A stretch of 63,871 nucleotides of DNA from a virus, in IMG/VR virus record IMGVR_UViG_3300010885_075200, positions 1 through 63,871 of that record; one strand, given 5' to 3'. Below are positions 53,459 through 62,964 of the stretch, one piece after another (the first letter of the stretch is position 1; every line of letters begins with the position of its first letter). The notes under the pieces were generated by a model. It saw nothing but the letters and a program-made list of their open reading frames with translations, did not search any database and was not told the origin of the DNA. Both the position numbers and the translations under genes were made by a program.

Positions 53459-53671
53459 ATGTTTGTAAAATACGGAGATAACACAGAGTCTATTGCAATA
53501 GAAAAAACTGCAAATATTTGCAGTGTTTGTGGTGAAAATAAATTAATTGTGAATGAAAAAACAGAATGTAAGTGCTCTAAAGATAAAAATTTTAATAAAT
53601 TAAAAAAAATCTTTACACAAGAAAATAATTCGACTAATTTTCAAGAAAATAAGCGAGTAGAGAATGTTTAA
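53459..53671 (+). CDS. Small zinc-ribbon-like protein
   Basis: Seventy residues with CSVC (about 18-21) and CKC (about 36-38), a probable small zinc site, followed by a basic tail. It overlaps the protease gene by 8 bases. GAGG precedes the ATG. No family is recognised. Confidence 0.58.
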   Translation: MFVKYGDNTESIAIEKTANICSVCGENKLIVNEKTECKCSKDKNFNKLKKIFTQENNSTNFQENKRVENV

Positions 53672-56600
53672 AAAAATAGGTTATTCACCATCACCAATCA
53701 CCAGCATATCAAAGGAAGCCGTACTGGCAGATCCTGTTATTGTTGAGAGATTTACAAAGCTAGCACATGAAATAAAAAGTCTTGCTCCAAAATCAGACGA
53801 CTTTCTTTATTTCTCAATAATCTTTTTAAAGTCAGCAGAATCAGCCCTATTGGATGAATCTGGATCAATCAAAAAGGTTGGAAGCGAAAAGGCTTGGGGC
53901 TATTTTGATGAAGGTTGGAAGTGGCATGGAAACGTAAAGCCACACAAAAATAACAATGGTGATATCTTTCCAGAAATAGAGCTAAAAAAGGCCGCTAGCA
54001 AATGGGTTGGTATGCCGCTCTGCAAAGACCATGAGTCATCATCGGTTGATGGAATAAGAGGAATTATTCTAGATACATTTTATGATGAAAAGCTAAAACA
54101 GGTAGTTGGTCTTTGTGCGCTTGACAGGGTCAACTACGCAGATCTTGCAAGAAAGGTTGAGACCGGAATTGTAAGATATGGATCAATGGGTACTGCAGTA
54201 GAAACATCTGTATGCTCAGAGTGTCAAAACTTTGCAAAGACAGCAAGTGAATACTGTAACCATGTCAAAGGCAGAACTGCATGGGGAGAAATCAACGTTG
54301 GATTAAAGCCAATTGAATATTCTCTTGTTGTTCAGCCTGCAGAACCAGGTGCGGTTTTACTCCGTTGCATTGCATCACTAAAAGAATATAAGAAAGAATT
54401 TATAAATTACGGTGTTGAGAATTTTGATGAGATGATAGGAAAACTTTCTCTTGATCAGGCACAACATCTAAATACTATCGTTAAAACTGCTTGTGGTGAA
54501 GATGGATGCTCACCATCAGAAAGAAGAAAAATTATAACCTCATTCTTAAAAACAAACTCTTTAATAAAGGCTTCTAGTACACCAGTTGGATCACATTCTG
54601 TTTCTGAAGAGCAGAATATGACTTCACATTGGAGTGATTCTTTGCGTAATAATAATGAGTATGTTAGTGAAAATCTTGATGGTGTAAAAGATTACACCGG
54701 AACTGATGGAAGCAAAGGATTAATTGCATCTGTATCTGATGATTATGCTGATAGAGGTAATCCACAGCTTGGTGATTCTATATTAGATAATGCTATACCA
54801 GATATTTCAATAATCAATCAGGCTTCTCTTAAAAAAGAAGCAACAAAAAACAAGTCTCTAATCTCAACAATAATGGAGGAAATTATGACAGAAAAAGAGC
54901 TCAGAAAAAGAGCTGAATTAAGAAGAAAGCTTGCATATCATCAGGGTGGATCAGAAGGTCTTGAGCCATCAGGCTTCAAATCAAAGCCATTCTCTCACAA
55001 TGAAGATAAGCACATGAAGCAGACCAAGAGCATGGGCAGCAAAGATGGCATGTTCCCAGGTGACGAGCAGAAGAAAGAGAAGCTCTCAAGAGCAGAGCTT
55101 GAAGAGCGTCAGATGCGTCGTCTTGCTTATTTCCAGGGTGGCTCAGAGAAAGGTGTAGAGCCAGCTGGCTACAAATCAAAGCCATTCTCTCACAATGAAG
55201 ATAAGCACATGAAGCAGACCAAAGGAATGGGCGGAAAAGAAACGCTATTCCCAGGCGACGAGAAAGTAAAGCAGACCCAGAAAAGAGCTGCTTACTCAGG
55301 TCCAGCCCTTAGCACCAAGCTAAGCTGGCCAGTCTCAGCATCAGGTGGCATAAACAAGTCAGCAGCACTCTTTGAAGTTTATGCTGGCGATAGAAAAGTA
55401 ATTGCAGCAACTGGTCACGAAATCTTCGGAAATGAAGTTTCAGAAAATTGGAACTGGTTTACAAGCAGAGAGTATGGTCAGGAAGTTTGCAAGCAGATCA
55501 GAACAGCAGGACTTAGCCACGTTGCAATGCTTCTAAAGGGCGCACAGGCAACTGATCCAGCCGCAGCAGTTCCACCTCCACCTCCAGGTGGCGATGTACC
55601 TCCAGCCCCAGATATGGGTGCTCCTCCAGCCCCTCCAATGCCAGAAATGCCACCTATGGGCGGCGAAGAAGGCGAAGAGGGTGAGGAGAAGTCTCCAAAA
55701 GAGAAGGTTGAGGAATCACTCACTGTAATTGAAAGCGAGATTGACAAGGTAAGAAGCGCACTCAAAGACCTTGCTGGTGGTGAGCCAGTAGAAGTAAATG
55801 TAAATGTTGGCGATGAAGGCGTTGAGAAGGATGAGTCACAACTCAAGCTATCAAGCTCAGTAAAGACACAGCTAAAGGTTGCCTTGGCTGAAATGAATGA
55901 AGCTGCTGACGAGCTAGCAATGATTGCAGAAACATACGAAGGTGCAGATCGCCTATCAGGTGCAAATAGAAGAGAACTCGACAATATCGCCTCTGAATCA
56001 CTAAGAGTAGCTGCATCACTTATTGGACGCTCTGGCGCACTTACAAAGGTTGCAAGAACACTTTCTACAACCCTAACCAAGGTTGCAAAGGTAGCTTACG
56101 CAGAAGCTGAAATGCACATGGATCATGATATGATGAACGACGCAGAAGATGATGTTGATCACGCAGAAGATGAGGCTGATTACGCAGCTGATTTCATGAG
56201 TGACATGAGCGATATGGCAGATGATGAATCAGTAGAGGAAGATGATGGTGTAGATCACCTTATAGCAACTGCACTCGATCTTCGTCGCGCAAGAAGAGAG
56301 CAACTTGTCGTTGAAGCTGCCAAGAAATCAAAAAAGATGGACGAGAGAATGGAGAAGATGAGAGCAGCAAAGAAAGACGAAAAGAAGTCTGATCCAAAGG
56401 CTGCCAAGAAATCAAAGAAGGAAGAAGAGGAAGAGGAAATGAAGGGCAAGAAGCCAGCAAAGAAAGCTTCTGATACATCTTCAATCTCAAAATCCGCAGC
56501 ACTTCGTGATATGGTACATGATGCATTCCAGACAAAGAAGGCCGAAGACGAGAAGGACTCATACAAAGTTAAGCTTCGTAGAGCATACGATGTTGCAATC

Positions 56601-56843
56601 GACATGCAGAAGAAGGGATTACTTCCAATGAGCAAGACTGCTCTTGACAAGCAGGTTGACGACATAATGGACTTTGATGACAGAGCATTTGAAGCATTCA
56701 AGAGATCTGTTGCATCTGCTCGTCCAGTTGAGTCAGTAAAAATTGCAAGAGACCTTGGTGGCATCAATGTTGGTGTAGAATCAACATCAGATCAACCATC
56801 AGCAAAATCAACCGCAGAACTTTTAAGCATGCTTTGGGGCTAA
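53664..56843 (+). CDS. Head maturation protease fused to scaffold region
   Basis: A 1059-residue protein. Residues about 70-240 match phage prohead proteases of the type with NGDIFPEIELKKAASKWVG, the CKDHES histidine, LDRVNYADLARKVETGIV and YGSMG. A zinc-knuckle-like C184, C187, C198, H200 follows. Residues about 420-540 contain a tandem duplication (GFKSKPFSHNEDKHMKQTK and its copy). A proline-rich linker (about 636-666) leads into acidic, coiled-coil and Lys-rich sequence typical of scaffolds. A strong GGAGGA before an in-frame ATG at 54885 suggests that the scaffold part is also made separately. It processes and shapes the prohead. No Shine-Dalgarno of note at the main start, which overlaps the previous gene. 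Confidence 0.82.
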   Translation: MFKKIGYSPSPITSISKEAVLADPVIVERFTKLAHEIKSLAPKSDDFLYFSIIFLKSAESALLDESGSIKKVGSEKAWGYFDEGWKWHGNVKPHKNNNGDIFPEIELKKAASKWVGMPLCKDHESSSVDGIRGIILDTFYDEKLKQVVGLCALDRVNYADLARKVETGIVRYGSMGTAVETSVCSECQNFAKTASEYCNHVKGRTAWGEINVGLKPIEYSLVVQPAEPGAVLLRCIASLKEYKKEFINYGVENFDEMIGKLSLDQAQHLNTIVKTACGEDGCSPSERRKIITSFLKTNSLIKASSTPVGSHSVSEEQNMTSHWSDSLRNNNEYVSENLDGVKDYTGTDGSKGLIASVSDDYADRGNPQLGDSILDNAIPDISIINQASLKKEATKNKSLISTIMEEIMTEKELRKRAELRRKLAYHQGGSEGLEPSGFKSKPFSHNEDKHMKQTKSMGSKDGMFPGDEQKKEKLSRAELEERQMRRLAYFQGGSEKGVEPAGYKSKPFSHNEDKHMKQTKGMGGKETLFPGDEKVKQTQKRAAYSGPALSTKLSWPVSASGGINKSAALFEVYAGDRKVIAATGHEIFGNEVSENWNWFTSREYGQEVCKQIRTAGLSHVAMLLKGAQATDPAAAVPPPPPGGDVPPAPDMGAPPAPPMPEMPPMGGEEGEEGEEKSPKEKVEESLTVIESEIDKVRSALKDLAGGEPVEVNVNVGDEGVEKDESQLKLSSSVKTQLKVALAEMNEAADELAMIAETYEGADRLSGANRRELDNIASESLRVAASLIGRSGALTKVARTLSTTLTKVAKVAYAEAEMHMDHDMMNDAEDDVDHAEDEADYAADFMSDMSDMADDESVEEDDGVDHLIATALDLRRARREQLVVEAAKKSKKMDERMEKMRAAKKDEKKSDPKAAKKSKKEEEEEEMKGKKPAKKASDTSSISKSAALRDMVHDAFQTKKAEDEKDSYKVKLRRAYDVAIDMQKKGLLPMSKTALDKQVDDIMDFDDRAFEAFKRSVASARPVESVKIARDLGGINVGVESTSDQPSAKSTAELLSMLWG
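54885..56843 (+). CDS. Candidate nested scaffold protein from internal start
   Basis: An in-frame ATG (residue 408 of the protease ORF) has GGAGGA at 54875-54880, four bases upstream, one of the best Shine-Dalgarno sequences in the window. It would yield a 652-residue protein starting MTEKELRKRAELRRK and containing only the duplicated, proline-rich and acidic coiled-coil parts. This matches the known design of nested protease/scaffold genes such as lambda C/Nu3. Part of the GGAGGA is dictated by Met-Glu-Glu codons, so chance is possible. Confidence 0.5.
   Translation: MTEKELRKRAELRRKLAYHQGGSEGLEPSGFKSKPFSHNEDKHMKQTKSMGSKDGMFPGDEQKKEKLSRAELEERQMRRLAYFQGGSEKGVEPAGYKSKPFSHNEDKHMKQTKGMGGKETLFPGDEKVKQTQKRAAYSGPALSTKLSWPVSASGGINKSAALFEVYAGDRKVIAATGHEIFGNEVSENWNWFTSREYGQEVCKQIRTAGLSHVAMLLKGAQATDPAAAVPPPPPGGDVPPAPDMGAPPAPPMPEMPPMGGEEGEEGEEKSPKEKVEESLTVIESEIDKVRSALKDLAGGEPVEVNVNVGDEGVEKDESQLKLSSSVKTQLKVALAEMNEAADELAMIAETYEGADRLSGANRRELDNIASESLRVAASLIGRSGALTKVARTLSTTLTKVAKVAYAEAEMHMDHDMMNDAEDDVDHAEDEADYAADFMSDMSDMADDESVEEDDGVDHLIATALDLRRARREQLVVEAAKKSKKMDERMEKMRAAKKDEKKSDPKAAKKSKKEEEEEEMKGKKPAKKASDTSSISKSAALRDMVHDAFQTKKAEDEKDSYKVKLRRAYDVAIDMQKKGLLPMSKTALDKQVDDIMDFDDRAFEAFKRSVASARPVESVKIARDLGGINVGVESTSDQPSAKSTAELLSMLWG
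54977..55027 (+). repeat. 51-bp direct repeat, copy 1
   Basis: Identical to 55172-55222. It lies within a longer duplicated unit of about 130 bp in the protease-scaffold gene that repeats every 195 bp (65 codons) and encodes KSKPFSHNEDKHMKQTK. Confidence 0.9.
55172..55222 (+). repeat. 51-bp direct repeat, copy 2
   Basis: Second perfect copy of 54977-55027. The flanking sequence is diverged but alignable, showing an in-frame tandem duplication whose core has stayed or been kept identical. Confidence 0.9.
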
Positions 56844-56853
56844 GGAGTAAAAA

Positions 56854-57480
56854 ATGAAAAAAGTAGCAGCAGACCTTATTGCATCAGAAATGTTCAGACT
56901 TCTAAAGAAGGCCTCTGATAATGATGCAGCTTTAAATGGACAAATGTTATCAGATAATGCTCATGATATGCATGAAGATGCAGCAGAAGATGATGAAGAC
57001 ATGGCAGATGACATGAATGAAGATTTGGCAGAAGATGATGAAGACATGGCAGATGATGAACTCCGTGGATACCTAATGGATCATGGAGACGAATCAGATG
57101 ATGATGCATCATATGTCGATAATGAGATAGAGTCAATGCACAACATGGCTCACGATGATCTCACTAACAACCTCATGAGACAGGATGGATCATATGAGAT
57201 GATGAATGATGAAGACGGACTCCTTGCAAAAGCAAGTGATATGAGACTGATGACTGGACTTGGTAGAATCGAAGCATCACTCCGCAATAAGGGAGAGGGA
57301 TTTGCAGCAGACCTAGTTCGTGCAACAGCATCAAGCATCAAGGAAGATATCGTAAAAGAAGCTTCACAGAGAACCTTCGTTGTAAAGAATCTTGTAAAGA
57401 TGGCATCAGATCTTGATCGCAGAGGAAATAGAGAAGCAGCAAGAATGGTAAAGTCTACCATTATGAAAATTAACAGATAA
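56854..57480 (+). CDS. Acidic scaffold-like protein
   Basis: A 208-residue protein. The N-terminus MKKVAADLIASEMFRLLKKA is helical. Residues about 30-75 are strongly acidic with a repeated AEDDEDMADD unit. The C-terminal half contains two helix-Gly-helix motifs (RIEASLRNKGEGFAADLVRA; LDRRGNREAARMVKSTI). Composition and place between the protease-scaffold and capsid genes suggest a scaffold or core protein. AAGGAG precedes the ATG and a terminator follows. Confidence 0.65.
   Translation: MKKVAADLIASEMFRLLKKASDNDAALNGQMLSDNAHDMHEDAAEDDEDMADDMNEDLAEDDEDMADDELRGYLMDHGDESDDDASYVDNEIESMHNMAHDDLTNNLMRQDGSYEMMNDEDGLLAKASDMRLMTGLGRIEASLRNKGEGFAADLVRATASSIKEDIVKEASQRTFVVKNLVKMASDLDRRGNREAARMVKSTIMKINR
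56983..57056 (+). repeat. Two 29-bp direct repeats in the acidic scaffold-like gene
   Basis: 56983-57011 and 57028-57056 are identical and 45 bp apart, encoding the AEDDEDMADD unit twice with a 15-residue period. Confidence 0.85.
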
Positions 57481-61255: not shown

Positions 61256-61894
61256 ATGGCACTCAAACCACTCACTCCTGGCTACCTTCCACTCGGCCAG
61301 TACGACCTTCTCGACTCAGCACCAACAATCGTTGGTGGCGAAGTTGGTGTTTTCGGAACCGCAGTATCTGCAGATTACTACGCTGCTGATGCAGGTGGTC
61401 CATCAATCGGTGTAGACGTAAAAGTAACCGCTGATCAGGCAGTTGCAGGCGAAGTATTCGGCCTTCTTGACGAAGGTACCTCCGGATACGGCACCTACTA
61501 CGGAACAGTTATCGGTGGCACTGTTGGTCAGGGCACTGCATTCGCTTCTGGCGTTGCAGCAACCGCAGCATCAGGCACCGGCTACGTTGTAGTTGGACCA
61601 AGAACCTCATTTGCCTCAGGAAAAGCAACCCTCTGGACAATGCCAGGTCTTTACGGCGTAACAGCCGATGCCTTTGCATCAACACCAACTGCATCATCAT
61701 TCGGTCCAAACACCAAACTATACGGCACAGCATCAACAGGCAAGCTTGCACCATCCCTTGGAACAGTCCAGGTTGCAGTTGGCATAAATTCTGTATCAGA
61801 TAGCTCATTAGTATCAACCTCTGCAGCTGCAGCAACCGGCACAGCTTCAGCAACAGAGTACTATGCAATCTACCTCTTGGGCACCCACGTATAA
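61256..61894 (+). CDS. Probable major head decoration or second structural protein
   Basis: A 212-residue Ala/Gly/Thr-rich beta protein with almost no charge clusters. Its codons (TAC, ATC, CTC, GGC) are as strongly biased as those of the adjacent capsid gene, pointing to a very abundant product. It lies 29 bases before the capsid gene, a common place for decoration or cementing proteins. TAGGAG precedes the ATG. No named family is recognised. Confidence 0.65.
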   Translation: MALKPLTPGYLPLGQYDLLDSAPTIVGGEVGVFGTAVSADYYAADAGGPSIGVDVKVTADQAVAGEVFGLLDEGTSGYGTYYGTVIGGTVGQGTAFASGVAATAASGTGYVVVGPRTSFASGKATLWTMPGLYGVTADAFASTPTASSFGPNTKLYGTASTGKLAPSLGTVQVAVGINSVSDSSLVSTSAAAATGTASATEYYAIYLLGTHV

Positions 61895-61923
61895 TTTACT
61901 GAGTAATTAAGGAGAAAAATAAA

Positions 61924-62964
61924 ATGTCAAATATCTTCAATACACACGGCGAACTCAATGCCGGTAACGTAAAAGAGGCCCTTCAGCAGATTGTCAAGTA
62001 CGCTTCAATCATCGAAGAGCTTCAGCCATCAAATGCAGTAATTGCATCTGGCCCATCACTCAACGACGATCAGCGCGACGAAATGATCAAGCAGGCTCTT
62101 CTTACTCAGGAAGGCAAAGTAGCTCTCGGTCAGGCAATGGCAACCCCAATCCGCCGCAACTTAGACTACGCAGGCGTTGGCCGTAAGGCTCTCGTTGTAG
62201 ACCCACTCCCACAGGGCGCTCTCCCAGTTTACGACCGCGACATCGACGTTGCTGCCGTTGTTATCTCTTCAAATGGTTCCGCTCCAGAAAGCCGTGTTTT
62301 CGGTGATCGCGTAACCGTTCCAGAGTTCGAAATCGTCAGCAATCCAACCGTCCGTATCGCTGAAGTCAAACGTCGTCGTTTCAACGTCATCGACCGTGCC
62401 CAGCAGAAGGCTCGTCAGGAAATCCAGGCCCAGGAAGACGCCAACGTCTTTGCTGCCCTCGACTTCGCATCTGACACCACCAAGGGCGGCGAGAACACCA
62501 ACCAGAGACTCGATCTAAACGACACTGCTACAAGCGGCAAGCTTTCAAAGAACGGCATGCTCTCTCTCAAGCGTCAGATTGACCGTTGGGACCTTGTAAC
62601 CTCAAAGTACTTCATGAACATCAATGAGTTCACTGATATCCTCAGCTGGGAGTCAGCAGGTGCAGCAGGCTCTTCTCAGGTTGACCCAGTCACCCAGAGA
62701 GAGATCCTCCAGACCGGTCTTTACGGCCAGATCTTCGGCGCAGACATCATCGTCTCAAAGATTGTTCCAGCAGGCAAGGCTTTTGCCACTGCAGAGCCAG
62801 AGTTTGTAGGTGTCATGCCAGTTCGTCAGGACATCGAAGTCCTCCCAGCAGACGAGCCAAAGCAGCTCAAGCTCGGTTGGGTTGTCTCTGAGATCGTCGG
62901 TATCGGTATCGTCAACCCACGTGGCGTTGCTTCCGGTACAATCCAGGGCTCAGAGTCTATCTAA
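61924..62964 (+). CDS. Major capsid protein (HK97-fold type)
   Basis: A 346-residue protein with the organisation of HK97-like capsid proteins: a helical N-terminal arm (residues 1-60), an E-loop-like region around VVDPLPQGALPVYDRDIDVA, the spine-helix region around RRRFNVIDRAQQKARQEIQA, and a C-terminal A-domain ending in WVVSEIVGIGIVNPRGVA. Strong codon bias (CGT, CTC, ATC), an AAGGAG Shine-Dalgarno and a terminator right after the gene mark it as the most highly expressed in the cluster. The N-terminal arm may be removed by the upstream protease. Confidence 0.88.
   Translation: MSNIFNTHGELNAGNVKEALQQIVKYASIIEELQPSNAVIASGPSLNDDQRDEMIKQALLTQEGKVALGQAMATPIRRNLDYAGVGRKALVVDPLPQGALPVYDRDIDVAAVVISSNGSAPESRVFGDRVTVPEFEIVSNPTVRIAEVKRRRFNVIDRAQQKARQEIQAQEDANVFAALDFASDTTKGGENTNQRLDLNDTATSGKLSKNGMLSLKRQIDRWDLVTSKYFMNINEFTDILSWESAGAAGSSQVDPVTQREILQTGLYGQIFGADIIVSKIVPAGKAFATAEPEFVGVMPVRQDIEVLPADEPKQLKLGWVVSEIVGIGIVNPRGVASGTIQGSESI

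Follow-up and report, generated by a model that had tools for sequence, protein, structure and literature searches.

In bacteriophage lambda the scaffold Nu3 is encoded in frame inside the gene for the head protease C, from an internal start and with a shared stop, and C itself is a ClpP/S49-type protease. Nested protease and scaffold genes are already known from lambda, Mu and the herpesviruses. The roles of lambda C and Nu3 have been described (PMC3224144). In Mu and the Mu-like phages PaMx73 and KS10/BcepMu, a scaffold start with a Shine-Dalgarno (SD) sequence lies in frame inside the protease gene (PMC4378225; PMC2628397), and a scaffold nested in the protease gene is reported to be true of many phages (PMC2628397). 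Herpesvirus UL26/UL26.5 joins an N-terminal protease of assemblin fold to a C-terminal scaffold, and a shorter, co-terminal scaffold starts inside the longer gene (PMC12474303). The proteases of T4 (gp21), of giant phages and of herpesviruses are related (PMC5694885).

Here we describe an open reading frame (ORF) that very probably gives two co-terminal, in-frame products: a protease-scaffold fusion in small amount and, more abundantly, a scaffold of 652 aa. The window (the whole stretch of DNA analysed, a virus record of 63,871 bases) carries its head genes in the usual order: terminase, portal, protease ORF and capsid gene. The ORF (53664..56843; this and all features within it lie on the + strand) encodes a protease-linker-scaffold fusion of 1059 aa from a start with a weak SD. 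Inside it, GGAGGA (54875..54880) is separated by the 4-nt spacer AATT (54881-54884) from an ATG (54885-54887) that is codon 408 of 1059 and in frame with 53664. The putative nested gene (54885..56843) shares its stop with the fusion; protease and scaffold regions occupy one frame and end together. A first-pass annotation had proposed this nested gene, and the coordinates bear out its GGAGGA four bases 5' of an in-frame ATG and the 652 residues of the internal ORF. Its view that the main start has the poorer ribosome site also holds, the anti-SD pairing energy being -5.0 kcal/mol at 53664 against -9.3 at the internal site. The best gene start in the window, that of the major capsid protein, reaches -9.2 kcal/mol, and the internal site is equally good; among the 36 in-frame ATGs of the ORF, 54885 has the strongest pairing. 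The annotation was right to place the ATG at the start of the scaffold region and wrong to place it exactly where the protease ends. The protease fold ends near codon 240-300, and the ATG lies ~110-160 codons past that domain, beyond a variable linker (54564..54872) whose alignment is gap-rich and of low identity. The conserved scaffold region opens at the ATG, and at the level of sequence a conserved internal ribosome site and start codon mark its boundary. Taken by itself the site is unremarkable: when synonymous codons were shuffled with the protein fixed, an equally strong SD arose at this Met in 392 of 1000 shuffles (39%) and at some Met in 594 of 1000, so that its significance comes only from conservation in homologues.

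The protease region (53664..54563, residues 1-300, with the fold spanning about 41-238) matches the PHROG head maturation protease at 1.8e-10. An AlphaFold2 (AF2) model of the protease (mean pLDDT 82.9) was aligned by VIA-align with the VZV protease (1vzv; Z 11.5, 114 residues, 2.4 A) and with T4 gp21 (5jbl; Z 10.3, 129 residues, 3.3 A), against only Z 7 for unrelated MCE-type folds. A Foldseek search of the PDB with this model gave no match with E below 0.001, and among predicted viral structures phage G gp19 comes nearest. The model predicts that the protease shares the herpesvirus assemblin/T4 gp21 fold. Residues H123 (54030-54032) and S174 (54183-54185) are invariant in 42 sequences and are likely candidates for the catalytic residues. 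In the 42 homologues, phage G relatives included, C184, C187 and C198 are invariant and H200 is near-invariant; their C-x2-C-x10-C-x-H pattern (54213-54263) is a zinc-finger-like insert, which suggests zinc binding in this protease family. Two relatives carry further insertions. An intein of ~375 aa (Intein_splicing 5e-13, LAGLIDADG_3 2e-9) sits inside the protease of IMGVR_UViG_3300035670_013179 (L023:818-5083), at the conserved NNN/GDIFP motif and with Cys substituting for the next residue. Gp97 of Mycobacterium phage Myrna (L008:5839-9474) is annotated as a tape measure, yet its N-terminus is a prohead protease; its linker holds extra domains, one stretch of which matches tape-measure or endolysin proteins of other phages and may account for the annotation.

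With the predicted protease fold, the closest parallel is herpesvirus UL26/UL26.5. The window ORF resembles it in the N-terminal protease, the C-terminal scaffold, the shorter co-terminal product and the protease fold (Z up to 11.5). It differs in that its short product is predicted from an internal bacterial ribosome site and that the scaffold is longer (652 residues versus 329 in herpesvirus), no R or M cleavage site was identified in the window protein, and no scaffold homology between window and herpesvirus was detected. Descent of the nested assemblin-type protease/scaffold pairs of large phages and herpesviruses from a common tailed-virus ancestor, instead of two separate origins, strikes us as quite improbable; if it were true, these phages would be the bacterial counterpart of the UL26/UL26.5 system. 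Lambda C/Nu3 is a functional parallel, sharing the in-frame scaffold within the protease gene, the common stop and the internal start. Homology to lambda C as an S49/ClpP-type protease was not found: the protease part has no Pfam match and its predicted fold is herpesvirus/T4 gp21-like, which differs from that of lambda C and so indicates that the arrangement was not inherited from lambda. The Mu-like phages, with an in-frame, SD-preceded scaffold start inside the protease gene, are likewise a functional parallel. Their nested scaffold is 148 aa in KS10 versus 652 aa in the window, and family searches of the window proteins gave no match to Mu-type families.

What does the region downstream of the internal start look like? 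From residue 408 the protein comprises two tandem repeats, an alpha/beta domain, a Pro-rich stretch and long helices, and the duplication, Pro-rich linker and acidic/helical regions described in the first-pass annotation are all present. The tandem duplication (54933..55262), with two copies of AYxQGG...DKHMKQTK...FPGDE, is found in the homologues with both copies, and the small alpha/beta domain (55308..55541, scaffold residues 142-219) forms an AF2 block with pLDDT about 77-85. The AF2 model of the scaffold as a whole is mostly helical or disordered with a predicted C-terminal helix; at pLDDT 62.7 and pTM 0.29 it was too uncertain for a fold search. A profile search of PDB sequences yielded no credible relative and no solved scaffold matching the region. 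The C-terminal helical domain (56550..56720) has a homologue within gp21 of Bacillus phage G: hhalign aligns 57 residues at 42% identity (E 3e-7), and tblastn over the whole phage collection also led from the scaffold C-terminus to gp21 (2e-3). Phage G resembles the window in this domain of gp21 and in gp19, which comes closest among named proteases (33% over 209 aa). Unlike the window, it has gp19 and gp21 as separate genes, each with its own SD, gp21 lying two genes past the protease with the acidic gene gp20 between them; in phage G and related contigs (L152-L159) the protease is a stand-alone ORF of about 300 aa. The scaffold C-terminal region thus occupies its own gene elsewhere. Gene position, helical or disordered character and the phage G comparison suggest that the 652-aa product would act as a scaffold. 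Directly 3' of the scaffold, a gene with a strong SD (56854-57480) encodes a very acidic protein that contains repeats of DDEDMADD type. Family searches with it gave no match, and it is possibly a second core or scaffold protein.

Codon usage changes along the ORF. With each phage's own capsid gene as the reference, capsid-like codon adaptation is higher downstream of the internal start in 25/25 sequences. The step was equalled in 0/1000 permutations in 13 of the 25 and is weak in about seven homologues; in the window it was equalled in 0/2000, with a change point at codons 426-429. Such a step implies that the two parts of the ORF are expressed differently. In 23/23 sequences the RNA folds less strongly around the internal start than in the rest of the ORF. 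Step and open RNA together fit a separate, stronger translation of the 3' part, and an internal promoter may be an alternative account of its expression. Within the window, capsid-like codon usage singles out the genes at 44, 777, 61256 and 61924 (regions 44-1922 and 61256-62964), those at 44 and 777 being perhaps further abundant structural proteins.

Based on these observations, we propose a model in which the weak ribosome site at 53664 would yield a minor, 1059-aa protease-scaffold fusion and the strong SD at 54885 a 652-aa scaffold in greater amount; SD strength and codon usage point to this excess indirectly. Assembling together with the major capsid protein (61924-62964), the scaffold would bring in a few copies of the fusion, the protease being packaged via its own scaffold domain; the protease would then excise itself and the scaffold during head maturation. 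We infer initiation at 54885 and the ratio of the products, as well as the function as a scaffold and the order of the cleavage steps. The competing explanation that fares best accepts the internal start and makes the 652-aa product an internal core or ejected head protein, the scaffold being another gene, such as that at 56854-57480. Large phages do pack many protease-processed internal head proteins (PMC5694885; PMC10052503), the ORF is directly followed by a gene for an acidic repeat protein whose SD is strong, and phage G has an extra acidic gene between protease and gp21. We nevertheless regard it as unlikely, as fusion to a protease and a place between protease and capsid gene typify the scaffolds of Mu-like phages and herpesviruses (PMC2628397; PMC12474303), and the codon adaptation fits a high copy number.

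The case for an internal start is carried by the homologues, which were gathered from IMG/VR by searches that took the ORF's protein and the capsid protein as queries. A codon alignment was built from 24 non-redundant sequences, the window and 23 homologues, leaving out the intein-bearing L023. Homologues lacking the ATG or the SD would argue against a nested scaffold start, and these were looked for: the fused ORF and the internal ATG are present in all 24, and GGAGGA is kept in all except L079, which has AGAGGA. The conserved Glu follows a Met, Val or Leu (a Lys in L079), the first three encoded by ATG, GTG or TTG, and Val and Leu are always GTG and TTG in the close homologues. The Glu codon itself is GAG in 24/24, whereas GAG accounts for 41% of the gene's other Glu codons, and this is the sole conserved Glu column of the ORF that is 100% GAG. 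These codon choices mean that GGAGG is retained beyond what Met-Glu-Glu requires, as the nested reading predicts. We rejected treating the NTG codons for Val and Leu as separate events: a single substitution converts any of ATG, GTG and TTG into another, and the only evidence is that the third base has not drifted since. Synonymous divergence in 5-codon windows reaches its minimum for the whole ORF over the SD, at codons 402-406, where 13 changes were counted and 37.3 expected (z -5.64); the scan takes neighbour pairs round the tree and counts each branch about twice, so that this z overstates significance, while the rank, lowest of roughly a thousand windows, is unaffected. The 9- and 15-codon minima cover the same region.

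The pattern extends well beyond the close relatives. Profile searches retrieved ~90 distinct fused ORFs whose protease and scaffold regions are homologous; their contigs reach about 450 kb in length, and all complete homologues outside the phage G clade carry the fused ORF. In nearly all of ~75 non-redundant fused ORFs from IMG/VR a start codon and an SD are kept at the scaffold boundary, and the residues that encode the SD differ among clades (MEDI, KEEQS, GGTS, GTGDI, QEEN), as do the codon phases. With clades named after the residues directly before the Met, the KEEQS clade has the SD AAGGAGG, the GGTS clade AGGAGGAACTTCT (core AGGAGG), the GTGDI clade AGGAGATATT (core AGGAG), the QEEN clade GAGGAAA (core GAGG) and the TEEL clade GGAGG; L169, L176, L183 and L209 are ambiguous and were left out of this motif comparison. 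GTG replaces the internal ATG in L133, and L114 has one additional codon between SD and ATG. An anti-SD energy of <= -6 kcal/mol is found at 88% of the 75 non-redundant sites (four of which, L069, L084, L091 and L133, were assigned by the script to a wrong upstream codon and do contain the -9.3 site) versus 8.6% of 2326 other in-frame ATGs; in synonymous-codon nulls for the 75 sites 28% on average, and 40% at most, reach this value. The SD of one large and distant clade pairs less strongly (about -6.0), and its Glu-Glu is conserved at the residue level too. That the wider family keeps SD and start with other residues supports the nested protease/scaffold reading. The protease ORFs of the cultured actinophages Myrna, ArcherS7, E3, Phrappuccino and Finch are also fused, and have a Met at a shared position (MARS/MARQ/MTAT/MSRT) after an AAAGGA- or AAGGAG-like sequence. 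This Met is possibly another internal start, judging from the sequence, and is not distinguishable from background: its energies run from -4.6 to -8.0, 25% of other in-frame ATGs are at -5.4 or better, and a composition step was looked for in these ORFs and not found. We do not claim an internal start in these five phages. The window scaffold has no detectable similarity to its counterparts in Myrna, E3 and BcepSaruman.

Could the boundary instead be conserved as a cleavage site? On this account only the fusion is made, as with gpO of phage P2, and self-cleavage at an x-x-E junction frees the scaffold, I-M/V/L-E-D/E being the protease site. The close clade does have I-x-E immediately before the Met, and cleavage follows A/S/G/T-x-E in related proteases of giant phages and Glu in T4 gp21 (PMC5694885). 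A cleavage site, however, demands neither GAG over GAA, nor GTG/TTG for Val/Leu, nor a start codon, and the codon-usage step implies unequal expression of the two parts. Moreover, at 24 of 71 sites, those of the GGTS and GTGDI clades included, the six residues upstream of the start contain no [AGSTILVM]-x-E and yet SD and start are kept, so the motif is not the sole cause of conservation and was rejected as such. We therefore hold a fusion-only product to be highly improbable, and cleavage near the junction may occur in addition to the internal start. That the SD and ATG are an unused by-product of a conserved Met-Glu-Glu-Ile-Met peptide is scarcely credible, since, although 39% of synonymous shuffles of the window sequence alone produce an equally strong site at this Met, the strongest synonymous constraint of the whole ORF falls on it, the SD persists while peptide and codon phase change between clades, and codon step and open RNA structure coincide there; conservation likewise led us to reject a chance origin.

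What are the implications of two products from one protease ORF? Our literature search, of incomplete coverage, found Mu-like and herpesvirus precedents only and none for the nested arrangement in this phage group. What is new is the group itself (large, mostly uncultured, big phages), how widely conservation extends, a protease of assemblin type and the comparison with the separate genes of phage G. Fused ORFs of this kind would be annotated as one long protein, hiding the likely scaffold, and gene calling needs to be corrected for them. Since the genes are split in phage G and fused in its relatives, the advantage of nesting becomes testable, and the assemblin-type protease provides a phage comparison for the herpesvirus arrangement. 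The double-start reading of the ORF extends a recurrent design to one more lineage, apparently an independent one; in this design a scaffold-fused protease is packaged and surplus scaffold comes from an internal start.
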